In this document: positions 7,641-26,189 of the stretch, piece by piece | How positions within the stretch are numbered: position 1 is the first letter of the stretch | Layout of the letters: the number at the start of each line of letters is the position of its first letter | Assembly (NCBI RefSeq): GCF_963678245.1 | Contig: NZ_OY782770.1 | Coordinates: forward strand, 372,001 to 436,000 | DNA length: 64,000 nucleotides | From: an uncultured Sunxiuqinia sp. | Lineage (GTDB): Bacteria; Bacteroidota; Bacteroidia; Bacteroidales; Prolixibacteraceae | Direction: 5' to 3' | Position numbers and translations under genes: made by a program | Notes under the pieces: generated by a model | The model's database searches: none | What the model was told of the DNA's origin: nothing | Seen by the model: the letters and a program-made list of their open reading frames with translations, nothing else

Positions 7641-7697
7641 TTTCTTTTTGATAATCTGGTTAAAAACTACATTAACCAATGAGGTAGGAATTTTTCC

Positions 7698-7779
7698 TTA
7701 TGCCCTCCCTACGCCGGTACTAACCGGATCAGGTTCATTGGGTATGATCTCAGCCCTTAATTATTAAGGCACCCCATTG
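7698..7779 (-). promoter_or_regulatory. TPP (thi-box) riboswitch
   Basis: The minus strand carries the hallmark thi-box blocks in order: GGGGTGCC, then GGGCTGAGAT, ACCC, GAACCTGATCCGGTTAGTA and CCGGCGTAGGGA. These form the two arms that bind the pyrimidine and pyrophosphate of thiamin pyrophosphate. It lies about 60 bases upstream of the TonB receptor start, so high TPP should switch the receptor off. No strong intrinsic terminator follows; a small hairpin AAGGAA-AAA-TTCCT sits between it and the start, so the output mechanism (transcription or translation) is unresolved. Confidence 0.96.
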
Positions 7780-7794
7780 CAATAAATACAATTG

Positions 7795-15603: not shown

Positions 15604-15678
15604 GGGCGATTAGCTCAGTTGGTTCAGAGCACTTGGTTTACACCCAAGGGGTCGGGGGTTCGACTCCCTCATCGCCCA
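15604..15678 (+). tRNA. tRNA-Val (anticodon UAC), copy 1
   Basis: A 75-nt cloverleaf with acceptor GGGCGAT/ATCGCCC, anticodon arm CTTGG-TTTACAC-CCAAG giving anticodon TAC, T-arm GGGGG-TTCGACT-CCCTC and discriminator A. The 3' CCA is not encoded. Identical in sequence to copies 2 and 3. Confidence 0.97.
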
Positions 15679-15685
15679 CTCAAGA

Positions 15686-15717
15686 AAAAGGAAGTTTCTG
15701 TTGGAACTTCCTTTTTT
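15686..15717 (+). terminator. Terminator-like hairpin in tRNA spacer 1
   Basis: AAAAGGAAGTT-loop-AACTTCCTTTT followed by more Ts, directly after tRNA-Val copy 1. It has the form of an intrinsic terminator yet lies between tRNA copies. Confidence 0.75.
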
Positions 15718-15760
15718 AATGAAGCTTTTCTAAAAAGAAGGCACGTTCAAAAAATATTCA

Positions 15761-15835
15761 GGGCGATTAGCTCAGTTGGTTCAGAGCACTTGGTTTACAC
15801 CCAAGGGGTCGGGGGTTCGACTCCCTCATCGCCCA
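15761..15835 (+). tRNA. tRNA-Val (anticodon UAC), copy 2
   Basis: Base-for-base identical to copy 1. No TTTG/TANNTTTG promoter is present in the spacer before it. Confidence 0.97.
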
Positions 15836-15842
15836 CTCAAGA

Positions 15843-15874
15843 AAAAGGAAGTTTCTGTTGGAACTTCCTTTTTT
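15843..15874 (+). terminator. Terminator-like hairpin in tRNA spacer 2
   Basis: Exact repeat of the hairpin in spacer 1, 157 bases further on. Confidence 0.75.
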
Positions 15875-15917
15875 AATGAAGCTTTTCTAAAAAGAAGGCA
15901 CGTTCAAAAAATATTCA

Positions 15918-15992
15918 GGGCGATTAGCTCAGTTGGTTCAGAGCACTTGGTTTACACCCAAGGGGTCGGGGGTTCGACTCCCTCATCGCCCA
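15918..15992 (+). tRNA. tRNA-Val (anticodon UAC), copy 3
   Basis: Base-for-base identical to copies 1 and 2. It is followed by a different, stronger terminator. Confidence 0.97.
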
Positions 15993-16016
15993 CAAGAATG
16001 GATTTCAAATGAAATC

Positions 16017-16361: not shown

Positions 16362-16392
16362 TTTTTTAATGAACTTATGTTCCTTATATTTG
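16362..16392 (+). promoter_or_regulatory. Probable promoter of the NifX/MinD cluster
   Basis: TATATTTG at 16385 matches the -7 element. Nineteen bases upstream is TTTT rather than TTTG. The predicted transcript start is about 20 bases before the first gene of the cluster. Confidence 0.55.
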
Positions 16393-16420: not shown

Positions 16421-16741
16421 ATGAAAATAGCAATAACAGCAACAGGAGATACATTGACATCGAAATTAGATAACCGCTTTGGACGGTGTTCCTATTTTGC
16501 CATTTATGATCCCGAAACAAACAATACAAAATTCATTCTGAACCCGAACAAAGAAGCAGCAGAAGGCGCGGGTCCAGCTGCGGTTCAAATGATAGCATCG
16601 CAAGGTGTCAAACAAATAATATCTGGAGAATTTGGAAGTAAAGTAAGATCCATTTTGGATGATCTAAATATTCAAATGGTCATGTTCACTGATCCTGAAA
16701 AAAGCATTCAGGAAATCGTATCACTAATGGTCGTAAAATAA
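16421..16741 (+). CDS. NifX/ORP-like iron-molybdenum cluster-binding protein, first copy
   Basis: A 106-residue protein of the dinitrogenase Fe-Mo cofactor biosynthesis (NifX/NifB C-terminal) fold, RNase-H-like. The family motifs are LDNRFGRCSYFAIYD near residues 17-31 and EGAGPAAVQMIASQGVKQIISG. This length and layout match the 'orange protein' (ORP) of Desulfovibrio, which holds a Mo-Cu sulfide cluster non-covalently, and related anaerobe proteins. No nitrogenase genes occur in the window, so a nitrogenase role is not suggested. It heads the plus-strand cluster; the next gene begins 21 bases later. Confidence 0.88.
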   Translation: MKIAITATGDTLTSKLDNRFGRCSYFAIYDPETNNTKFILNPNKEAAEGAGPAAVQMIASQGVKQIISGEFGSKVRSILDDLNIQMVMFTDPEKSIQEIVSLMVVK

Positions 16742-16762
16742 TTATAAAAAGGAGGTGTTATT

Positions 16763-16996
16763 ATGCCCGGATTTAACAGAAGAGGTCCTCAAGGTGAAGG
16801 ACCAATGACTGGTCGAAAACAAGGAAGGTGCGCTCGTAGAAGTGAAAATCCTTCCAGTCGCGACACAGGTACAGAAGAACCAAAACCAAAACCAAAACCA
16901 AACCAAGAAAACGATGAAACACTCGGTTGGTTTGGCCGAAGAAGAGGAATAGGGCTCAGAAATGGTCAGGGACACGGTTTCCGAAACCGAAGCTAA
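16763..16996 (+). CDS. DUF5320-type glycine/arginine-rich small protein
   Basis: A 77-residue basic protein with the N-terminal signature MPGFNRRGPQGEGPMTGR and KQGRC of DUF5320 proteins, a (KP)4-type repeat in the middle, and a Gly/Arg tail (RRRGIGLRNGQGHGFRNRS). Function is unknown; such proteins are frequent beside NifX-like genes in anaerobes. It has a strong Shine-Dalgarno (AAAGGAGG) that fixes the start. A second, shorter member closes the cluster at 25119. Confidence 0.8.
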   Translation: MPGFNRRGPQGEGPMTGRKQGRCARRSENPSSRDTGTEEPKPKPKPNQENDETLGWFGRRRGIGLRNGQGHGFRNRS

Positions 16997-17013
16997 GCTG
17001 CGCGTAGTTAAGA

Positions 17014-17050
17014 ACTGGCAGTAAAATGGTCCTATGCTGCCGGTTTTTTT
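17014..17050 (+). terminator. Terminator after the first DUF5320 gene
   Basis: ACTGGCAG pairs with CTGCCGGT (one G-T) across a 15-base loop and is followed by seven Ts. It may partly separate the first two genes from the rest of the cluster. Confidence 0.75.
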
Positions 17051-17071
17051 ATCTTAAAAAAATAATGAATC

Positions 17072-17407
17072 ATGAAAACATTTGCAATTCCAGTAGAGAA
17101 CGGACAACTGTGCACACACTTTGGGCATTGTCAACAATTTGCGATCATCCAGGTTGATGACAACAAGGCACTCCAACCAGATTATCTAACTCCCCCACCT
17201 CACGAACCAGGCCTTTTGCCCAAATGGTTGGGACAACATGGAGTCACCAATGTTATCGCAGGAGGTATCGGACAACAAGCCATCAACTTGTTCAATAAAC
17301 AAAATATCCAAGTAACAATAGGCGCCCAAATCAAAACCCCTGATGAACTCGTGGAAGAATGGCTGGCTGATTCTTTGATTTCAGGAGAGAACGCCTGCGA
17401 CCACTAA
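17072..17407 (+). CDS. NifX-like protein, second copy, with C-terminal CxH tail
   Basis: A 111-residue NifX-family protein. Conserved features are CTHFGHCQQFAI near residues 13-24 and GVTNVIAGGIGQQAINLF. The two cysteines and two histidines in CTHFGHC, plus the terminal NACDH, offer soft-metal ligands that the first copy lacks. It is followed 9 bases later by the DUF89 gene, so the two are surely co-transcribed. Cluster or metal carriage is inferred from the family. Confidence 0.85.
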   Translation: MKTFAIPVENGQLCTHFGHCQQFAIIQVDDNKALQPDYLTPPPHEPGLLPKWLGQHGVTNVIAGGIGQQAINLFNKQNIQVTIGAQIKTPDELVEEWLADSLISGENACDH

Positions 17408-17416
17408 TTAAATGTC

Positions 17417-18319
17417 ATGGGAGCTGATTATCGTTGCTTTTTTTGTTTCAACCGTGCATTTGAAAAACTAATGATCCAGGAACAACTAGAACCTGCAGAG
17501 GCAAAATATTTTACCAACGAAATAATGCAATTATACCTGGATAAACAGGAGGAGTTTTCAACACCTCAATTAGCCCGTGAACTACATGCACGACTAAAGA
17601 AATGTACAAACAATGCTGATCCATACGAAATAAGAAAGAAGCAAAGTAATGATTTGATACTTGCGGGTTATCAAAAGTTTAAAAACCAAATTCAATCTAG
17701 TCAGAACCCTTTTGACACGGCACTTCGGCTAGCGATTGCAGGAAATATAATTGACTTCGCTATTGATGATTCTTACAAGCTCGATGCGACCATTGATAAA
17801 GTATTGCATTCAGACTTTGCCATCGATCATTCGAGCCAGCTAAAGTCAGACTTGGACAATGCACAATCGGTGTTGTATCTGGGAGATAATAATGGTGAAA
17901 TTGTATTTGACAAACTTTTGATTGAAACGATCAACCATTCAAACCTAATCTACGCCGTGAGGGATAAGCCAATTATCAACGACGTTACCCTGGCTGATGC
18001 AAATTATGTCGGACTGGATCAATTGGTTCCTGTTATTTCGAATGGTTATGATGCACCTTCAACGATTTTGGAGTATTGTTCCAAAGACTTCTTAAACGTT
18101 TTCAACCAAGCCGATGTCATCATTTCGAAAGGGCAAGGGAACCTAGAAGGATTAATGGAAACGCAAAATCGAAACATCTTTTATCTATTAATGGTGAAAT
18201 GTGATGTTATTGCAGAAAAGCTTCATGTCAAGAAAGGTGATTTTGTTGTAACAAAAACGACTGCATTAAACCAGGGAACAGAAACACCTGATAGTAACGA
18301 AAAATACTCAAAGGAATGA
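17417..18319 (+). CDS. DUF89/ARMT1-like family protein
   Basis: A 300-residue protein of the DUF89 family, metal-dependent phosphatases proposed to remove damaged sugar-phosphate or nucleotide metabolites. The N-terminal CFFC is typical of the prokaryotic branch; the active-site region is LYLGDNNGEIVFDKLL, with conserved ADVIISKGQGNLEGL and VKCDVIAEKL near the C-terminus. Substrate is unknown. Location between NifX-like and MinD-like genes suggests it clears or trims a phosphorylated precursor in the same pathway, which is inference. The C-terminal ~20 residues are divergent. Confidence 0.85.
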   Translation: MGADYRCFFCFNRAFEKLMIQEQLEPAEAKYFTNEIMQLYLDKQEEFSTPQLARELHARLKKCTNNADPYEIRKKQSNDLILAGYQKFKNQIQSSQNPFDTALRLAIAGNIIDFAIDDSYKLDATIDKVLHSDFAIDHSSQLKSDLDNAQSVLYLGDNNGEIVFDKLLIETINHSNLIYAVRDKPIINDVTLADANYVGLDQLVPVISNGYDAPSTILEYCSKDFLNVFNQADVIISKGQGNLEGLMETQNRNIFYLLMVKCDVIAEKLHVKKGDFVVTKTTALNQGTETPDSNEKYSKE

Positions 18320-18366
18320 TGAGCTGAAAGCACCTAATTTCAAGATTCAATTAAGTTAGAAAAAAG

Positions 18367-19227
18367 ATGAAGATAGCTGTTGCAAGTGGGAAAGGCGGAA
18401 CCGGGAAAACACTGGTATCTACAAACCTGTTCAACGTAGTTCAAAAATCAGGAATTGCCGTTGAATTGATTGATTGCGATGCAGAAGAACCCAATGACCA
18501 ACCATTTATTGGAGGTCGGTTAGACGACGAAGAAATGGTCACTCAAAACATTCCATCAATCGATAAGGCCAAATGTACCTTTTGTGGAAAATGCCAGGAA
18601 TATTGCAATTACAATGCAATCATTATCCTACCAAAATTACAGCATATTCAGGTGATCGAAGATCTTTGCCACGACTGTGGGGCATGTAGCTATGCCTGTC
18701 GGGTTGGCGCAATTACAGAAAAAACAAAAACCATTGGAACTATCACAAGGTATGAATTGGACAATGGTTGTGCATTAATTGAAAGCCAAATAGAGATTGG
18801 GGTGTACTCTTCCGTTCCATTAATCAACCAGGCCATTAAAAGTTCTCAAGAAAACCAACTGGCAATTTTAGATGCACCTCCTGGAACTTCGTGTCCTTTT
18901 ATTGCGACTGTTTCCGCTGCCGATTTTGTCATTTTAGTAACCGAACCAACCCCATTTGGGATGAATGATCTCAAATTATCGGTTGATACCCTGATCCATT
19001 TGGATAAACCTTTCGGGGTCATCATTAACCGCGCCGGACTTGGTGATAACCGGGTGTATGACTATTTAAAAGAAAACAACATTCCTCTGTTATCGGAAAT
19101 TCCTTTTGACCGGAAGATTGCAAAAACCTACTCCGAAGGTCAACTAATTTCGGATACAATGCCTGAATACGATGATCACTTCCATCAGTTGTTCACAACC
19201 ATAAAAAATCAACTTCAAAATGACTGA
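18367..19227 (+). CDS. MinD/ParA-type ATPase with two [4Fe-4S] motifs, first
   Basis: A 286-residue deviant Walker A ATPase. The P-loop SGKGGTGKT lies near residues 7-15. An insert near residues 62-110 carries two ferredoxin motifs, CTFCGKCQEYC and CHDCGACSYAC. The switch/Walker B area reads ILDAPPGTSCP, followed by VTEPTPFGMNDL. Such proteins occur as adjacent pairs in ORP operons (DVU2103/DVU2104 in Desulfovibrio) and may deliver or assemble metal-sulfur clusters. It overlaps the second ATPase gene by 8 bases, implying tight coupling and perhaps a heterodimer. Confidence 0.92.
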   Translation: MKIAVASGKGGTGKTLVSTNLFNVVQKSGIAVELIDCDAEEPNDQPFIGGRLDDEEMVTQNIPSIDKAKCTFCGKCQEYCNYNAIIILPKLQHIQVIEDLCHDCGACSYACRVGAITEKTKTIGTITRYELDNGCALIESQIEIGVYSSVPLINQAIKSSQENQLAILDAPPGTSCPFIATVSAADFVILVTEPTPFGMNDLKLSVDTLIHLDKPFGVIINRAGLGDNRVYDYLKENNIPLLSEIPFDRKIAKTYSEGQLISDTMPEYDDHFHQLFTTIKNQLQND

Positions 19228-20104
19228 AATAGCCATACTCAGCGGGAAAGGGGGAACAGGCAAATCAAGCCTGAGTGCAGCCCTGGCAAGCTTGACCTCT
19301 AAAATAGTAGTTGCCGACTGCGATGTGGATGCTGCGAATCTGCATCTTGTCCTTCAGCCAAATGACTACCGCGAAGAAGTTTATATTTCGGGACAGAAGG
19401 CGGTTATCGATTACCAAAAATGCACCGATTGCGGCCAGTGCCTGGAATACTGTCGGTTTGATGCCATTCATTATCAAAACAACCGCTACCAAATTTCGGG
19501 AACAGCCTGCGATGGTTGTAAGCTTTGTGCACATGTCTGCCCAAGTGAGGCTATAAGCATGGTCAATCACGATGAAAGCCGATGGTATGTTGGTGACATT
19601 CCCAACGGGAAAATGGTTCATGCAAGGCTGGCACCGGGAGAAGACAACTCCGGCAAGCTTGTCAATATTGTGAGGGATGAGGCACGTGAAGTTGCCTTCG
19701 ATATCAAAAGCGACATAATCCTCATTGATGGACCGCCGGGAATCGGTTGCCCTGTCATCTCCTCGCTCTCTGGTATCGACAAAGTGGTCTTGGTAACAGA
19801 ACCTACCCAGTCAGGCATTCATGACCTAAAACGAATCGTCGAATTGGTGCGCCATTATAAACTGCAAACTTATGTCGTTATCAATAAATTCGATTTGAAC
19901 CAATCGTTAAGCGAGGAACTAAAAACCTGGTGCCACACCCTGCAAATACCTGTAATTGGGGAGTTGCCTTTTGACGAGCTTGTGGTTGATGCCATGGTCC
20001 ACTGCGAAAGCATCACCAATTGGGCGCCCGATTCATGCATCACCAACGAAATAAAAAAAATATGGAACAAATTAATACGTTATGAGCCAACAGAATCCTT
20101 TTGA
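19220..20104 (+). CDS. MinD/ParA-type ATPase with two [4Fe-4S] motifs, second
   Basis: Paralogue of the preceding gene, 294 residues. P-loop LSGKGGTGKSS near residues 7-17; ferredoxin insert CTDCGQCLEYC and CDGCKLCAHVCPSEA; nucleotide switch ILIDGPPGIGCP and VTEPTQSGIHDL. Unlike the first copy, its second ferredoxin motif has the classical CP ending. GC content rises from here through about 23.7 kb compared with the gene before. It overlaps the Mrp gene by 23 bases. Confidence 0.92.
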   Translation: MTEIAILSGKGGTGKSSLSAALASLTSKIVVADCDVDAANLHLVLQPNDYREEVYISGQKAVIDYQKCTDCGQCLEYCRFDAIHYQNNRYQISGTACDGCKLCAHVCPSEAISMVNHDESRWYVGDIPNGKMVHARLAPGEDNSGKLVNIVRDEAREVAFDIKSDIILIDGPPGIGCPVISSLSGIDKVVLVTEPTQSGIHDLKRIVELVRHYKLQTYVVINKFDLNQSLSEELKTWCHTLQIPVIGELPFDELVVDAMVHCESITNWAPDSCITNEIKKIWNKLIRYEPTESF

Positions 20105-20897
20105 AAAAATAGAACTGCCCGGGGTAAAAAACATTCTGGTGGTGGCCTCCGGAAAAGGCGGTGTAGGAAAATCAACTGTAGCTGCCAATCTGGCTGTTGC
20201 ATTGGCACGCGAAGGCTTTCGGACGGGCATTTTTGATGCAGACCTCTATGGGCCCTCCATTCCATTGCTATTTGGGGTGCAGCATGTCAAACCAGATGTC
20301 ATTCATCACCAAGGGAAAGAGAGCATTGTCCCAATTACAAAATACGGTGTTAAAATCATTTCTATTGGGTTTTTCATGGTCTCCAACAAATCACTCATCT
20401 GGCGCGGCCCGGCAGCTTCAGCCGGTTTAGCCCAATTGCTATCGGACACCGAGTGGGGCGAACTGGACTTTCTGATTATCGATTTTCCTCCAGGCACAGG
20501 CGACATTCAACTGACCACCCTCCAACGACTAAACCTATCTGGCGGAATTTTAGTGACCACGCCCCAGCAATTGGCCATTGCCGATGCCCAAAAAGCTGCC
20601 GATATGTTCAACACCAAAATGATTCAGGTTCCCTTGCTGGGAGTGGTTGAAAACATGGCTTGGTTCACACCTGAAAAACATCCTGACGAAAAATACTACT
20701 TGTTTGGAAGCGGTGGCGGACAACAGCTAGCCGACCAACTTCAGATACCTTTGCTAGCTCAAATCCCATTGGTTTGCGACGCTTGCGAACTAAGCGATAC
20801 CGGCCAAACCATTTTTGCTTCAAAAGATGGGAACTTGATCAGCCAGTTTGAAACATTAGCCAATAAGATAAATCAGTCTTTAACATCACTTGTTTAA
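20082..20897 (+). CDS. Mrp/NBP35-type Fe-S carrier ATPase lacking the CxxC motif
   Basis: A 271-residue P-loop ATPase of the Mrp/ApbC family, with ASGKGGVGKSTVAANLAVAL near residues 24-43, then FDADLYGPSIP and LIIDFPPGTGDI. Family members bind and hand over [4Fe-4S] clusters through a CxxC after the ENM sequence. Here ENMAWF is followed by TPEKHPDEKYYLFGSGGG without any cysteine pair; the only Cys residues are in VCDACEL near residue 230, which form an alternative CxxC. It matches the third ATPase of ORP operons (DVU2109 type). Confidence 0.9.
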   Translation: MSQQNPFEKIELPGVKNILVVASGKGGVGKSTVAANLAVALAREGFRTGIFDADLYGPSIPLLFGVQHVKPDVIHHQGKESIVPITKYGVKIISIGFFMVSNKSLIWRGPAASAGLAQLLSDTEWGELDFLIIDFPPGTGDIQLTTLQRLNLSGGILVTTPQQLAIADAQKAADMFNTKMIQVPLLGVVENMAWFTPEKHPDEKYYLFGSGGGQQLADQLQIPLLAQIPLVCDACELSDTGQTIFASKDGNLISQFETLANKINQSLTSLV

Positions 20898-20907
20898 ACC
20901 GAACCTT

Positions 20908-21393
20908 ATGCAACCCATTTCATTTCAACCCATTGGCATCATTCATTCGGATCACTTGGAACCGCAAGGCACTCCTATCCAGTTTTCAGGAGCAAAAGAC
21001 GCCCGTGGAGAAATTGAGATCTTTCCTGAATTTCAGGATGGACTGATTGATCTTGATGGTTTTTCACATCTCATTCTGATCTATTATTTCCACCAGATCA
21101 AAAATCCGGCACTGATCGTGAAACCTTTTATGGACGATGCGGAACATGGTGTTTTTGCCACACGCAGTCCAGCACGTCCCAATCCAATTGGGTTCTCCAT
21201 TGTCAAACTAAATAAAATTCATGGCAGCCGACTATACGTGCAAGGACTGGACATAATCAACGAAACGCCTTTGCTCGACATCAAACCGTATGTTCCCAAT
21301 TTTGACCATATCGAAGCCGACAGAATCGGGTGGCTCGAAACAAATATTCATAAACATTCAATAACTAAAGATGACGGGAGGTTTATCAAATGA
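20908..21393 (+). CDS. trmO: TrmO/TsaA-family methyltransferase
   Basis: A beta-barrel SAM-dependent methyltransferase of about 161 residues. E. coli TrmO methylates N6 of threonylcarbamoyladenosine 37 in threonine tRNAs. Signatures are PIGIIHSDH at the N-terminus, FSHLILIYYFH, and GVFATRSPARPNPIGFSIVKL. I prefer MQPISFQPIG (20908), because family members begin close to this strand; an ATG at 20890 overlaps the Mrp gene end. The C-terminal domain of E. coli TrmO is missing, as in archaeal-type short members, several of which lie beside metal-cofactor genes. The substrate here may not be tRNA. Confidence 0.85.
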   Translation: MQPISFQPIGIIHSDHLEPQGTPIQFSGAKDARGEIEIFPEFQDGLIDLDGFSHLILIYYFHQIKNPALIVKPFMDDAEHGVFATRSPARPNPIGFSIVKLNKIHGSRLYVQGLDIINETPLLDIKPYVPNFDHIEADRIGWLETNIHKHSITKDDGRFIK

Positions 21394-21821
21394 AAATCAG
21401 ACTTGCATTCGCCGTAAATCGGGCAGAAGTTTTTGAGCAAAAACATTTTGGGGAAGCAGAAAAATTTCTCATTTATAAATGGGAGGCAAACCAACTGGTT
21501 TTTCAACAAGCGATCGAGAATCCACTAGTTCAAACACCCCTGGAGCGCCATTCTCCTGAAAAAGCAGAACTACTCATTTCCCTTCTAAAAGAACAGGGAA
21601 TAAACATATTGGTGTCAAAACAATTTGGGAAAAATATAAAAAGAGTCAATGCCTTGTTTGTTCCTGTTCAAGTCGGTACTTCCAGCCCCGATGAGTTATT
21701 TCCAATTCTCAAAAAACAAATGAGATGGATCGAAGAGGAATTGCTCCAAAATGCGGGCAATTATAAACTTTTCAACCTACAAAAAGGCACTATAAAAACA
21801 GCCGTTAATTCTAAAAACTAA
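21390..21821 (+). CDS. NifX-like protein, third copy
   Basis: A 143-residue NifX-family protein that starts inside the TrmO stop (4-base overlap). It has the family motif KHFGEAEKFLIYKW near residues 19-32, HSPEKAELLISLLKEQGINILVS and KRVNALFVPVQV. It has no cysteine, so if it binds a cluster it must use other ligands or a partner. The ~40-residue C-terminal extension with repeated basic residues is absent from the other two copies. Confidence 0.82.
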   Translation: MKIRLAFAVNRAEVFEQKHFGEAEKFLIYKWEANQLVFQQAIENPLVQTPLERHSPEKAELLISLLKEQGINILVSKQFGKNIKRVNALFVPVQVGTSSPDELFPILKKQMRWIEEELLQNAGNYKLFNLQKGTIKTAVNSKN

Positions 21822-21830
21822 CCATCCATA

Positions 21831-22472
21831 ATGTTCGAGATCCAACATAAACAAATCAGAACCCCCGGGCTGGAAATTGGGGAACGGGTTCAGCTTCCGA
21901 CTGTTTACGGAACTTTCGAGCTGATTCCATTTTTGGAAAAGGCAACGGGCAAGGAACATATCGCCTTGTTTAAAGGGCAACCTGAAAACCGAAAGCATGT
22001 GCTTGTTCGGATTCACTCGGCTTGTGCCACTGGCGATTTGTTTGGCTCCATGCGCTGCGATTGCGGCGAACAACTGCACCAGTCTTTAAACCTGATTGAA
22101 CAGGCGGGCTGCGGCATACTGATTTATTTGCAACAAGAAGGCAGAGGGATTGGCCTGATGGAAAAAATGAAAGCATACAAACTTCAGGAAAACGGATTGG
22201 ACACGGTCGATGCCAATCTCCACCTTGGACACCAGGCCGACGAGCGGGATTACCATGTTGGTGCAGAAATCCTTCACTACTTCAACATCAACCAGATAAA
22301 ACTATTAACCAACAATCCCGATAAAAAACAAGGGCTTGAACATAATGGGATAATCGTGGAAAGTTGTATTCCTGTGCTGTCAGAGCCGAACAAATACAAC
22401 GCCTTCTATTTGAAAACCAAACAAGAACGAATGGGCCATTTATTGGGACAATTAAATTTTGAAGGAATATGA
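21831..22472 (+). CDS. ribA: GTP cyclohydrolase II, stand-alone
   Basis: Zinc enzyme of 213 residues that opens GTP to 2,5-diamino-6-ribosylamino-pyrimidinone 5'-phosphate, the first step of riboflavin and some deazaflavin/pterin-like pathways. The zinc cysteines are in CATGDLFGSMRCDCGEQL, the catalytic/GTP loop in QQEGRGIGLMEKMKAY, and DANLHLGHQADERDYHVGAE is family-typical. There is no fused DHBP synthase (RibB) domain, unlike the usual Bacteroidota RibBA, and no other riboflavin gene nearby. Its place inside the NifX/MinD cluster suggests a dedicated role, which is inference. Confidence 0.93.
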   Translation: MFEIQHKQIRTPGLEIGERVQLPTVYGTFELIPFLEKATGKEHIALFKGQPENRKHVLVRIHSACATGDLFGSMRCDCGEQLHQSLNLIEQAGCGILIYLQQEGRGIGLMEKMKAYKLQENGLDTVDANLHLGHQADERDYHVGAEILHYFNINQIKLLTNNPDKKQGLEHNGIIVESCIPVLSEPNKYNAFYLKTKQERMGHLLGQLNFEGI

Positions 22473-22915
22473 AGAAGCTAATTGAAAATACCATTCAACT
22501 TCGTCCGCGTTATGGTGAGGTAGACCAAATGGGATATGTTTATCACGCCAGTTATGTGAGCTATTGCCATCAGGCACGTACCGAGTTGCTCCGCGAACTG
22601 AACATCGACGATAAAACGCTGGAGGAAAATTACATCATGCTGCCGGTCATCAGTATGAATTTGAAATATCATAAACCAGCCGGCTATGACGAACTACTGA
22701 CCATAAAAACAAGTATTCCGGAGATGCCGGCTACCCGTTTTTCATTTCATTTTGAAATTCGGAATGAACACGATGAATTGATTTGCTCCGCCGATTCAAC
22801 GACTGTTTTTGTGAACAGCACAAGCAGAAAGCCAATGAAAGCGCCGCCAATCATAATTGAAGCGATTGGAAAACAGCATAAAACCCAACAAAATGAAGCT
22901 TACCATACTCACTGA
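22469..22915 (+). CDS. Hotdog-fold acyl-CoA thioesterase (YbgC/FadM type)
   Basis: A 148-residue single-hotdog 4HBT protein that probably hydrolyses acyl-CoA or a related thioester in the cytoplasm. The active-site region YGEVDQMGYVYHASYVSYCH near residues 12-31 has the family Asp and the YH pair, followed by ARTELLRELN. It overlaps ribA by 4 bases and the next gene by 23 bases. Its presence in the cluster hints at a thioester step. Confidence 0.88.
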   Translation: MKKLIENTIQLRPRYGEVDQMGYVYHASYVSYCHQARTELLRELNIDDKTLEENYIMLPVISMNLKYHKPAGYDELLTIKTSIPEMPATRFSFHFEIRNEHDELICSADSTTVFVNSTSRKPMKAPPIIIEAIGKQHKTQQNEAYHTH

Positions 22916-23690
22916 AAATACTGCCGGAGGTCGCTTTGGTGCAGAGCATGGACTATCGTACCTGATTGAACATGACGGACGAACAATTTTGTTCGATACC
23001 GGGAGCAGTGATTTGTTTTTGAGGAATGCCCAAAAGCTGAACATCAAGCTTCAGGAAAAAGTGGATCTGATTGTTTTGAGCCACGGCCATTGGGATCACG
23101 GGGACGGGCTGCGCTATTTCAAAAATAAGCCACTGCTCACCCATCCGGGTGCATTTATTAAACGGTTTCGGAAATCGGATGGAACAGCTGTTGGACTGTC
23201 CTTATCTGAATCAAGCATCCACGACAAATACAAAGTAATCACTTCCAGCAAACCCTACCGGATTTCAGAACACATTTATTTTTTAGGCGAAATACCACGC
23301 CAAAACAATTTTGAATCACAGTCAACTTCTTTTATGGATGAAACTGAGATGGACGACTTTGTGCCGGACGACTCGGCATTAGCAATTATAAACAACCAAA
23401 AATTAACGGTGATCACCGGTTGCTCCCACTCGGGAATTTGCAATATCTGTGAATATGCCAAACAAATCACAGGAATATCCACCATCGAGCGAGTTATTGG
23501 CGGTTTTCACCTGAAACACAATGATGAACAGACCCAGCAAACCATCGGGTATTTTCATCAGGAAAAAGTAAACACCCTACTCCCCTCTCACTGCACAGAA
23601 CTGCCGGCACTTGCGGCATTTAGTGCCGATTTTGGGATTTCCCAAGTAAAAACAGGACAACTATTCAACTTCACCAAAACAATAAAATAA
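22893..23690 (+). CDS. COG1237-type metallo-beta-lactamase-fold hydrolase
   Basis: A 265-residue MBL-fold protein. The metal motif SHGHWDHGDGL lies near residue 62, with GCSHSGICNI and GGFHLKHND supplying the other ligands. The start MKLTILTENTAGG (22893) fits the family N-terminus; an ATG at 22857 gives an unlikely extension. Databases often label this family a methanopterin-pathway 'dihydropterin ... phosphate synthase', but that is weakly founded. Next to a GTP cyclohydrolase a pterin-like substrate is conceivable, not shown. Confidence 0.87.
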   Translation: MKLTILTENTAGGRFGAEHGLSYLIEHDGRTILFDTGSSDLFLRNAQKLNIKLQEKVDLIVLSHGHWDHGDGLRYFKNKPLLTHPGAFIKRFRKSDGTAVGLSLSESSIHDKYKVITSSKPYRISEHIYFLGEIPRQNNFESQSTSFMDETEMDDFVPDDSALAIINNQKLTVITGCSHSGICNICEYAKQITGISTIERVIGGFHLKHNDEQTQQTIGYFHQEKVNTLLPSHCTELPALAAFSADFGISQVKTGQLFNFTKTIK

Positions 23691-23752
23691 TGAACACTCC
23701 TTAAGTTGTAAATAAACAGAACATCAAGTCTATACAAATAATAAAGCAAAAA

Positions 23753-25108
23753 ATGAAAAGCACAGATGTATTAATTATTGGTGGAAGTGCAGCAGGAATG
23801 GTTGCTGCAATATCCGGGAAGACTTCATGGACGGATAAAAGCTTCATCTTGGTAAAAAAACAAAAAGACGTGATGGTGCCATGTGGAATACCATACATCT
23901 TTGGCACGCTTGACAGCAGTCAACAGAATATTATGCCTGTTGATAACATGTTGGCAAAAGCAGGTATTGAATCGCTTGTTAATGAAGTTGTTTCGATCGA
24001 CAAGGAAGCAAAAATTGCGACCATGAAAGATGGGAAACAAATTAGATACGACAAACTGATTATTGCAACTGGATCGACTCCAATAAAACCCAAATGGCTC
24101 AAAGGAGCTGAGCTAGACAATGTTTTTGTGATACCAAAAGATCGGGTCTATCTGGATTCGATGAAAGAAAAAATCAGTGGGTTAAAAAAAGTTGTTGTGA
24201 TTGGTGCCGGTTTTATCGGGGTTGAGTTCTCTGATGAACTAAAAAAACAAGGACATGAAGTTATCCTTGTTGAAAAAGAAAAGGACATTCTTTGTGCCGC
24301 TTTCGATGAAGAAATAGCTTCACGGATTGCTGGAATACTTGAAAACAGGGACGTACAAATAATAACAGGAAATGGGATCAGCGAAGTGATCGGCGATTCG
24401 AAGGTGAAAAGTGTGAAACTTGAAAATGGTGACCTGTTGGATGCCGACGCCGTTATCCTTTCGATGGGATATTTGCCAAATACAAAGTTGGCCAGCGATT
24501 CGGGAATTTACGTTGACGAGAGCGGTTTTATAGCCGTTGACGAATACATGCGCACCCACGAAAAGGATGTGTTTGCCATCGGCGATTGTGCCCAGAAACG
24601 TGATTTTATTACCCGCAAACGTATTCCTACGATGTTGGCTTCAACGGCTTGTGCCGAAGCAAGGGTTGCCGGAATGAATTTGTTTAATATCCATGTGGTT
24701 AAAACTTTCAGCGGAACCATCGGGATCTATTCAACAGCGATTGGCGAATATGGATTTGGGACAGCAGGAATTACCGAAAAACGGGCCGAAGAAGAAGATG
24801 TTTCGGTTGTTACCGGCTTTTTCGAGGGCGTTGACCACCATCCGGGAAACCTACCTGAAACCCACAAACAATTGGTTAAACTGATCGTGGCCAAATATTC
24901 GGGCGTTATTATTGGCGGCGAAGTAATCGGCGGAATAAGTGCCGGTGAATTGACCAACGTAATCGGATTGGCGATTCAAAACAGGATGTCTGTCAATTCA
25001 TTGTTAATTTCACAAATAGGTACCCACCCCTGTTTGACTGCCTCACCGGCTGGCTATCCTTTAATAAAAGCTGCCGAAATTATTTCAGCTAAAATGAGAA
25101 ACCAATAA
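23753..25108 (+). CDS. CoA-disulfide reductase/NADH oxidase-like flavoprotein
   Basis: FAD-dependent pyridine-nucleotide-disulfide oxidoreductase of 451 residues. FAD motif DVLIIGGSAAGMVAA at the N-terminus, single active-site cysteine C44 in MVPCGIPYIFG, NAD motif VVVIGAGFIGVEF and the second FAD motif VFAIGDCAQ. C44 as a lone redox Cys places it with CoA-disulfide reductase, NADH oxidase and NADH-dependent persulfide reductase. In this setting it could supply reduced thiol or persulfide sulfur or remove oxygen. A 62-base gap separates it from the previous gene. Confidence 0.9.
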   Translation: MKSTDVLIIGGSAAGMVAAISGKTSWTDKSFILVKKQKDVMVPCGIPYIFGTLDSSQQNIMPVDNMLAKAGIESLVNEVVSIDKEAKIATMKDGKQIRYDKLIIATGSTPIKPKWLKGAELDNVFVIPKDRVYLDSMKEKISGLKKVVVIGAGFIGVEFSDELKKQGHEVILVEKEKDILCAAFDEEIASRIAGILENRDVQIITGNGISEVIGDSKVKSVKLENGDLLDADAVILSMGYLPNTKLASDSGIYVDESGFIAVDEYMRTHEKDVFAIGDCAQKRDFITRKRIPTMLASTACAEARVAGMNLFNIHVVKTFSGTIGIYSTAIGEYGFGTAGITEKRAEEEDVSVVTGFFEGVDHHPGNLPETHKQLVKLIVAKYSGVIIGGEVIGGISAGELTNVIGLAIQNRMSVNSLLISQIGTHPCLTASPAGYPLIKAAEIISAKMRNQ

Positions 25109-25118
25109 AAAAATAAAG

Positions 25119-25307
25119 ATGCCAAAATTAGATGGAACTGGTCCCGAGGGCAATGGTCCCAAAACTGGACGAGGGTTGGGTAAAAGCAGCACAGTTAATG
25201 AAGAAGAAAAACTTCAGAAACTTGGCAAAGGCATTGGTAAAAAAAGAAAAACGGGCGGTGGAACAGGCCATGGCAACCGGTTAAAAAGCGGGTTGAAAGA
25301 TACTTGA
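25119..25307 (+). CDS. Second DUF5320-like small protein
   Basis: A 62-residue, Gly/Lys-rich protein beginning MPKLDGTGPEGNGPKTGRG, the DUF5320 N-terminal signature also seen at 16763. The rest is KLGKGIGKKRKTGGGTGHGNR, very basic and probably disordered. It follows the flavoprotein by 10 bases and looks like the last gene of the cluster proper. Function unknown. Confidence 0.72.
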   Translation: MPKLDGTGPEGNGPKTGRGLGKSSTVNEEEKLQKLGKGIGKKRKTGGGTGHGNRLKSGLKDT

Positions 25308-25469: not shown

Positions 25470-26189
25470 ATGGAAGAAAATCAAGGACAACAAATCGTAA
25501 GTATGCCCCGCATAGGAGAAGCAGCTCCTGTATTTAAAGCCGTAACTACACAGGGCGAAATCAATTTTCCTGCTGATTATAAGGGAAGTTGGGTAATCCT
25601 GTTCAGTCACCCTGCCGATTTCACGCCTGTCTGTACCTCTGAGTTTATGACCTTTGCAACCATGGAAGAACAATTCAACAAGGCCAATTGTAAGCTTGTT
25701 GGTCTTTCTATCGATGGACTTTACAGCCACATTGCCTGGTTGCGCACCATTAAAGAAAAAATTGAATACAAAGGAATGAAAGATGTCGAAGTAACTTTTC
25801 CACTCATTGAAGATATCACAATGGAAGTTGCAACCAAGTATGGCATGATGATGCCTGGCGAAAGTAACACCAAGGCTGTCAGAGCTGTATTTTTCATTGA
25901 CCCCAAAGGGATTATCCGTACTATTATTTATTATCCGCTCAGCTTAGGCCGTAATTTCGAGGAACTTTATCGAGCATTGATTGCCCTCCAAACCGCTGAT
26001 GAATTTGGGGTGGCAACTCCGGCCGATTGGCAACCCGGCGACGATGTAATCGTTTCCCCTGCCGGATCGTGTGGATCAGCTAAAGATCGGATGGAAGGGA
26101 AAGAGGAAGGTCTCGATTGTAAAGACTGGTTCTTTTGCACTAAAAAAATGGACAAAGAAACGGTGCTGAATAAAATCCTGAAAAAATAA
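25470..26189 (+). CDS. Peroxiredoxin, 1-Cys (Prx6) type
   Basis: Peroxide-reducing enzyme of 239 residues. The peroxidatic cysteine is C55 in HPADFTPVCTSEF; the C-terminal domain carries NFEELYRALIALQTAD as in Prx6 proteins. Extra cysteines in the tail (SCGSAKDR and DCKDWFFC) may act as resolving or metal-binding residues. It is 162 bases downstream of the cluster and has its own terminator, so it is likely separately expressed, though oxygen defence would suit an oxygen-sensitive pathway. Confidence 0.93.
   Translation: MEENQGQQIVSMPRIGEAAPVFKAVTTQGEINFPADYKGSWVILFSHPADFTPVCTSEFMTFATMEEQFNKANCKLVGLSIDGLYSHIAWLRTIKEKIEYKGMKDVEVTFPLIEDITMEVATKYGMMMPGESNTKAVRAVFFIDPKGIIRTIIYYPLSLGRNFEELYRALIALQTADEFGVATPADWQPGDDVIVSPAGSCGSAKDRMEGKEEGLDCKDWFFCTKKMDKETVLNKILKK

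Follow-up and report, generated by a model that had tools for sequence, protein, structure and literature searches.

Two described systems lie close to the gene cluster reported here. The first is the ORP complex of Desulfovibrio, which, as outlined in PMC6345978, comprises a pair of MinD-type proteins, each bearing two 4Fe-4S motifs, Orp8 (ORP itself), Orp5, and MrpORP; the last of these is an Mrp ATPase fused to a NifX-fold domain and hands a cluster to the Orp3-Orp4-Orp8 complex. The second is IssA, which combines a NifX fold with a cationic tail that, according to the proposal in PMC5524996, wraps anionic thioferrate. Further hallmarks are a Mo-Cu sulfide cluster on ORP in the first system and thioferrate nanoparticles in the second. 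We analyzed a 64,000-nucleotide stretch of DNA (the window) from an uncultured Sunxiuqinia species (contig NZ_OY782770.1, positions 372,001 to 436,000; host genome 4.9 Mb), in which 14 co-directional genes occupy positions 16421-25307 of the + strand. This cluster is a real and recurrent gene system that looks like a split, expanded ORP-type iron-sulfur operon. That this relative of the ORP operon serves as an anaerobic iron-sulfur depot and delivery system is, in our estimate, about an even bet.

Gene order and comparison with the ORP operon

The genes of the cluster, in order, and two associated features are as follows.

16421-16741, + strand: NIFX1, a 106-residue NifX-fold protein nearest the ORP/IssA-type branch (PF02579, 62 bits)
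16763-16996, + strand: DUF5320a, 77 residues, cationic, Gly/Arg-rich, isoelectric point (pI) 11.5 (PF17253, above cut-off)
17010-17052, + strand: hairpin plus T run, terminator- or attenuator-like, between DUF5320a and ORP, with loop AATGGTCCT
17072-17407, + strand: ORP, a stand-alone NifX-fold protein equivalent to the C-terminal domain of MrpORP (PF02579, 66 bits)
17417-18319, + strand: DUF89, of the ARMT1-like metal-dependent phosphatase family (PF01937, 207 bits; nearest solved structure 2g8l)
18367-19227, + strand: MIND1, a ferredoxin-MinD ATPase (CbiA/MinD, two Fer4 stretches, two 4Fe-4S motifs, invariant Cys176)
19220-20104, + strand: MIND2, a second ferredoxin-MinD ATPase (CbiA/MinD, two Fer4 stretches, invariant Cys177)
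20082-20897, + strand: MRP, an Mrp/ApbC-type ATPase without the canonical CPxC (PF10609, 286 bits)
20890-21393, + strand: TrmO-type methyltransferase, starting at TTG 20890 or ATG 20908 (TIGR00104, 137 bits, cut-off 93)
21390-21821, + strand: NIFX3, a divergent third NifX-fold protein (PF02579, 29.9 bits, cut-off 26.3)
21831-22472, + strand: stand-alone RibA, GTP cyclohydrolase II (TIGR00505, 235 bits, cut-off 206)
22469-22915, + strand: YbgC/FadM-type acyl-coenzyme A (CoA) thioesterase (TIGR00051, 94.7 bits, cut-off 68.7)
22896-23690, + strand: metallo-beta-lactamase-fold hydrolase (MBL; PF00753; nearest solved structure 2p4z, E 2.9e-72, also Tm1679)
23753-25108, + strand: CoA-disulfide/persulfide-reductase-like flavoprotein, 451 residues (nearest solved structures 6pfz, Npsr, and 8a56, CoA-persulfide reductase)
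25119-25307, + strand: DUF5320b, 62 residues, pI 10.2 (PF17253, 42 bits)
25470-26189, + strand: 1-Cys-type peroxiredoxin just 3' of the block, possibly associated (NF009668, above cut-off)

With the TrmO start taken as 20908, intergenic spacings range from -23 to 75 bases; 10 of 13 are overlaps or gaps of at most 25 bases, and the three larger gaps fall between DUF5320a and ORP (75 bases), DUF89 and MIND1 (47 bases), and MBL and the flavoprotein (62 bases). The original prediction for this DNA had described 13 tightly spaced co-directional genes. All of the families that it named (three NifX proteins, two MinD ATPases, Mrp, RibA, TrmO, DUF89, thioesterase, MBL, and flavoprotein) are present where it placed them, and the shared direction stands, but the count becomes 14 with the DUF5320 genes at 16763-16996 and 25119-25307, which had been missed, and the tight spacing holds apart from the 75-, 47-, and 62-base gaps. 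Because the hairpin with its T run lies inside the 75-base gap, a single transcription unit does not follow from spacing.

The cluster shares with the ORP operon of Desulfovibrio vulgaris (Orp3, 4, 5, 8, and 9) an ORP-type NifX protein, paired MinD ATPases that each carry two 4Fe-4S motifs, Mrp, and a protein of the MrpORP second-domain type. By sequence, the Orp8-type counterpart is NIFX1; the matched parts exclude Orp5, at which no search was aimed. The earlier proposal that the core is the gene set of Desulfovibrio ORP operons was thus borne out in its parts, though with MrpORP split into two genes. Three differences set the loci apart. First, MrpORP is a fusion in Desulfovibrio, whereas MRP (20082-20897) and ORP (17072-17407) are separate in the window. 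Second, the Desulfovibrio genes form a divergent pair of operons, which depend on sigma54 and have a dedicated regulator, whereas all 14 genes of the window cluster run in one direction, on the + strand. Third, compared with the five ORP proteins named in PMC6345978, rather than with the Desulfovibrio locus itself, the window adds DUF5320, DUF89, TrmO, MBL, thioesterase, flavoprotein, RibA, and a third NifX protein.

NifX-fold proteins and ATPases

A profile built from 11 relatives of NIFX1 had as its nearest solved structures MTH1175 (E 3e-16), which is classed as IssA-type in PMC5524996, 1rdu, and the ORP structure 2wfb (E 2.4e-10). ORP aligned with positions 266-364 of the MrpORP model NF041136 at 124 bits, the cut-off of 450 applying to the whole fusion, and its CTHFGHC and CDH motifs are nearly unchanged from the CXHFGHCE and CDH motifs given for MrpORP in PMC6345978. 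NIFX3, despite its borderline 29.9 bits, is a genuine NifX fold as judged from its predicted structure (mean predicted local distance difference test, pLDDT, 85.7), whose best Foldseek match was NifX in the NifEN-NifX complex (E 1.3e-5). The three proteins are 24 to 29% identical in pairwise comparisons. A tree of 142 rows, built on few columns and leaving many forks unresolved, placed the ORP and NIFX3 groups each on one side of a branch, and NIFX1 needed two changes; rows from outside Bacteroidota were present in all three groups.

Among relatives of the MinD proteins, the eight ferredoxin cysteines and one further cysteine, Cys176 in MIND1 (59 sequences) or Cys177 in MIND2 (40 sequences), were invariant. 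The additional cysteine sits in the motif D-x-P-P-G-x-x-C, seven residues past the Walker B aspartate, a spacing that we take to be shared by Cys132 of NifH. Given this NifH-like placement, a cluster at the interface between the two MinD proteins is possible.

MRP is a P-loop ATPase of PF10609 with the GKGGVGKST motif, in which respects it resembles the Mrp/NBP35/ApbC carriers, but it differs from them in the absence of CPxC. In an alignment restricted to proteins of 255-300 residues, 13 of 30 Mrps from such clusters had the canonical CPxC and 17 were without it, with none of the 13 in Bacteroidota-titled records. Lacking this motif, MRP probably does not hold a bridging cluster as other carriers of its kind do.

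DUF5320 and a likely split IssA

DUF5320 is nearly obligatory in genomes with the MinD pair and tracks it closely. In 198 genomes of the order, of which 72 had the pair, PF17253 matched 63 of the 72 and 10 of the 126 others (Fisher p 7e-31), and the match lay at most 5 kb from the pair in 55 of the 63 genomes having both; here as below, p-values from the 198 genomes overstate independence, the genomes being related. The DUF5320 proteins are small, Gly-rich, and basic, with a median pI of 10.9 and 94% above 9 (n=47). Counts for this family rest on PF17253 or on a sequence pattern.

A NifX domain and DUF5320, both above Pfam cut-offs, are fused in a Bacteroidota locus (L063) and an archaeal one (L136), and NIFX1 bears a Gly-rich cationic tail in 8 of the 65 loci that have it. 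By sequence pattern, 37 of the 65 have such a tail or a DUF5320-like open reading frame anywhere in the locus. As these fusions and tails match the layout of IssA, NIFX1 and DUF5320a together are likely to be a split IssA-type store. What the window has in common with IssA of Pyrococcus furiosus (PMC5524996) is the pairing of a NifX-fold domain with a Gly-rich, cationic partner, and a sulfur context; the comparison was made through the published layout and MTH1175, that is, with IssA as described rather than with its sequence. In IssA the tail belongs to the same protein, whereas the 106-residue NIFX1 has no tail and the cationic part is the next gene.

Linkage of DUF89, MBL, and TrmO to the MinD pair

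The gene order recurs in relatives. A protein search with DUF89, whose gene at 17417-18319 is the only PF01937 match found in its genome, matched 26 of 61 genomes, its own included. Among 28 regions around these matches, 15 had an adjacent MIND1-MIND2 pair and 13 had DUF89 without an adjacent complete pair; DUF89 stood directly between ORP and MIND1 in 11 of the 28.

In the 198 genomes, DUF89 was found in 36 of 72 with the pair and 9 of 126 without it (Fisher p 1e-11), MBL in 31 versus 15 (p 1e-6), and TrmO in 38 versus 27 (p 7e-6). Where both were present, the gene lay within 20 kb of the pair in 24 of 36 genomes for DUF89 (0.46 expected), 19 of 31 for MBL (0.4 expected), and 14 of 38 for TrmO (0.55 expected), expectations that assume a 3.7-Mb genome and ignore contig ends. 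The MBL count covers 46 of 53 genomes, as matches weaker than E 1e-40 were dropped, and MinD2 beside MinD1 was counted as one site. At least one of the three genes was within 20 kb in 37 of the 72 pair-bearing genomes.

A search with MIND1 matched at least 308 loci in bacteria and archaea, of which the 80 best were retrieved. Linkage was also seen in loci without Bacteroidota in their titles, for which whole genomes were searched. Within 10 kb of the MinD pair we found MBL in 9 of 48 (0.48 expected), TrmO in 7 of 48 (0.44 expected), and DUF89 in 10 of 48 (0.41 expected). These 48 loci were chosen from 58 after ten on contigs shorter than 8 kb had been dropped; they include four records titled only 'bacterium', and split MBL matches and MinD2 matches were counted once. 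Most clusters in this set are thus without each of the three genes, yet the genes lie near the pair some 15 to 25 times as often as expected. An earlier question, whether these genes adjoin MinD pairs in this genome only, is answered by their recurrence in other genera and phyla.

Across 93 MinD loci, the neighbor groups included DUF134 (37 loci), a radical SAM protein (18), IscU-type NifU_N scaffolds (17), and CGGC proteins (9), with group identity taken from Pfam for one member each and four for NifU_N. Two loci, L059 and L060, are copies of L031 and L035 and do not enter these or the Mrp-motif, hairpin, pI, cationic-tail, and NifX-tree counts. DUF134, the commonest neighbor absent from the window's cluster, may regulate such clusters elsewhere. 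In one locus (L079:13019-13741), a DUF364/DUF4213 putative heavy-metal chelation protein adjoins the MinD pair; this group occurs in 4 loci. Literature searches, which covered open-licence papers, turned up no title or abstract opening that describes this gene set; DUF5320 occurs in two papers with unrelated titles.

Sulfur-related enzymes, TrmO, and RibA

The flavoprotein keeps a CGIPY motif of the CGxPY active-site type and scored below the CoA-disulfide reductase cut-offs. In relatives, the slot after MBL holds 564-602-residue proteins in which a CoA-disulfide reductase is joined to a rhodanese domain (Pfam, three of three tested), and the one such fusion that was searched was nearest Npsr of A. 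fulgidus, an enzyme described as specific for persulfide and polysulfide reduction (PMC7969121). The window protein thus resembles Npsr and the CoA-persulfide reductases (6pfz, 8a56; PMC7969121) in fold and CGxPY motif and differs in having no rhodanese domain, which the three relatives share with Npsr. Thioesterase and MBL adjoin downstream in five other genomes (G001, G028, G020, G024, and G005), and a peroxiredoxin also lies near the cluster in four (G001, G005, G008, and G027). We take MBL to be COG1237-like; the H, G, H, D, and H of its HGHxDH motif are invariant in 17 relatives. A second TrmO copy, 46% identical to that of the cluster, lies elsewhere in the genome.

Stand-alone RibA was found in 4 of the 61 genomes (G000, G001, G005, and G006, the window's own included), all of the same genus. 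The genome also encodes a separate RibBA, in which Pfam recognizes both domains and to which the cluster RibA (216-residue frame) is 59% identical. In the cluster regions of the four RibA-bearing members, RibA and thioesterase are present in all four, MBL and flavoprotein each in three, DUF89 and Mrp each in two, and TrmO and NIFX3 each in one, variability that argues against an obligatory single pathway. Among the RibA matches listed for the 198 genomes, frames were at least 400 residues long except for three of 280 (G037), 287 (G109), and 308 (G175) residues; further stand-alone copies may exist beyond the matches listed. The remaining cluster regions that we examined gave no RibA, with one exception. 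In Plebeiobacterium marinum (L074:10305-15159), a peptide deformylase gene lies 5' of Mrp, and a quinolinate-phosphoribosyltransferase-family gene followed by a stand-alone RibA, 2.8 kb beyond Mrp, lies 3'. We read RibA in the window's cluster as a recent, genus-level recruit, perhaps one that supplies flavin to the flavoprotein.

Hairpin and promoter signals

The hairpin at 17010-17052, 3' of the nifX1-DUF5320 pair, has a 14-pair stem with a T run (z -2.2), and the same hairpin occurs in three more species of the genus (z -2.1, -1.6, and -3.8). Across the four species, the AATGGTCCT loop is invariant and stem changes are paired, and the long T run is confined to the window. A terminator-like hairpin lay 5' of 12 of 44 ORP genes having such an upstream neighbor, a survey in which some neighbors labelled DUF5320a in distant loci may be NifU_N. 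With the T run limited to the window and 12 of 44 genes so preceded, the hairpin is a feature of near relatives. It might allow excess production of the nifX1-DUF5320 pair, and its compensatory stem changes and invariant loop hint that it might be more than a terminator.

Promoter scans gave no signal above chance. Sigma70-type sites were fewer than in shuffled sequences (17 versus a mean of 21.1), the Bacteroidota -7 element TANNTTTG occurred at chance level (67 versus 72), and its combination with a -33 TTTG numbered 5 versus 3.0. One TANNTTTG lies at 16385-16392, just 5' of NIFX1, but proves nothing. Directly 5' of the cluster, at 15604-15993, are three tandem tRNA-Val(TAC) genes with identical scores and 157-base spacing, and a thiamine pyrophosphate (TPP) riboswitch lies on the - strand at 7689-7786 (73.9 bits versus a gathering score of 54.3).

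Discussion

What the sequences show is which gene families are present, that they occur together, that some are fused in relatives, and that Mrp lacks its motif. In the depot-and-delivery reading, the system would work as follows. NIFX1 and the small cationic, Gly/Arg-rich DUF5320 protein would form a store of anionic iron-sulfide, as the fused IssA does in Pyrococcus. The MrpORP-type NifX domain (ORP) and NIFX3 would be cluster carriers. A MIND1-MIND2 heterodimer would use ATP and electrons to load or mobilize the stored material, and Mrp may be a further carrier or chaperone. Along with thioesterase, MBL, and peroxiredoxin, the persulfide-reductase-type flavoprotein would keep CoA-bound and thiol sulfur reduced and so supply sulfide. 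DUF89 and TrmO would have linked functions of no assigned kind, and RibA would be a late addition, perhaps for flavin supply. Points in favor of this reading are the close association of DUF5320 with the MinD pair, the NIFX1-DUF5320 fusions, the nearness of NIFX1 to MTH1175, the recurrence of NifU_N scaffolds beside the MinD pair, the cluster transfer described for MrpORP, and the rhodanese-fused reductases in the flavoprotein slot of relatives. Assembly and delivery is also the likeliest role for the ATPases in our view, as the original prediction proposed for organic or metal-sulfur cargo, although the cargo would be metal-sulfur rather than organic.

Several observations weigh against this reading. 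First, by sequence pattern, 28 of the 65 NIFX1 loci have neither a DUF5320-like open reading frame nor a cationic tail, the Gly-rich tail of one NIFX1 (L108) is not DUF5320 by Pfam, and DUF5320a has more Arg/Lys and fewer aromatic residues than the IssA tail. Second, in MRP the CPxC that binds the bridging cluster is replaced at its canonical position. Third, Pfam finds no rhodanese domain in the window's 451-residue flavoprotein. Fourth, DUF89 and TrmO fit no clear place in the depot model. Finally, storage, the heterodimer, ATP-driven mobilization, and sulfide supply are all predictions from the genes.

A more elaborate proposal, which we consider unlikely, is a widespread anaerobic store in which the split IssA pair would be over-expressed via the hairpin in this genus, a NifH-like MinD heterodimer with an interface cluster would mobilize the contents, and DUF89, MBL, and TrmO would be dedicated parts. 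Quite unlikely, too, is a loose anaerobic gene island with a functional ORP core, in which DUF89, TrmO, MBL, and others would be neighbors retained through common expression under anaerobic conditions rather than through one function. Gene content does vary, in many genomes TrmO, MBL, or DUF89 occurs away from the MinD pair or where there is no pair, and 35 of the 72 pair-bearing genomes lack all three genes within 20 kb; however, the linkage is far above chance in several phyla and the genes are often interleaved among those of the core.

We also give little credence to an operon for sulfide, persulfide, and thiol stress, in which flavoprotein, thioesterase, MBL, peroxiredoxin, and DUF89 would detoxify CoA and thiols that are persulfidated or damaged while NifX, MinD, and Mrp proteins repaired damaged clusters. 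Persulfide-reductase-type flavoproteins in the slot, the peroxiredoxin neighbors, and the family name of DUF89 relatives, damage-control phosphatases, are consistent with such a role. Yet flavoprotein, thioesterase, and peroxiredoxin occurred in just 11, 9, and 4 of the 93 MinD loci, respectively (same strand, within 9 kb, many contigs being short), and are not core-defining.

More improbable still is an ORP-type complex that acts in cell division or pole positioning, in which the MinD proteins would have a spatial role, the iron-sulfur clusters would act as redox sensors, and the other genes would be anaerobe-specific partners. PMC6345978 and PMC3897727 describe the Desulfovibrio ORP proteins as putative participants in cell division or in placing the septum, and MrpORP as polar. 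Moreover, the best fold matches of the MIND1 model (pLDDT 96.7) were MinD proteins, with McdA, FleN/FlhG, and Soj high. HypB, ApbC, Cfd1, and NifH also ranked in that search, however, and the commonest neighbors were NifX, DUF5320, DUF134, DUF89, and NifU_N, no search having been aimed at division genes.

Finally, the original idea of one pathway that starts from GTP, builds a small cofactor of organic or mixed type, and loads it was rejected as the main explanation and is highly improbable, for although RibA is full length, above cut-off, and inside the cluster in all four genus members with a stand-alone copy, and recurs near Mrp in P. marinum, it is limited to that genus within the set of 61 genomes, its host has a separate RibBA, and the other parts vary within the genus.

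Beyond the SUF and ISC systems, it is an open question by what means anaerobes store iron and sulfide and move them. The gene set described here links ORP-type operons, IssA-like storage, and the uncharacterized DUF5320 family in a testable set of proteins, and it marks out DUF89, COG1237-like MBL, and the small TrmO proteins found in anaerobes as candidate participants in one common process.

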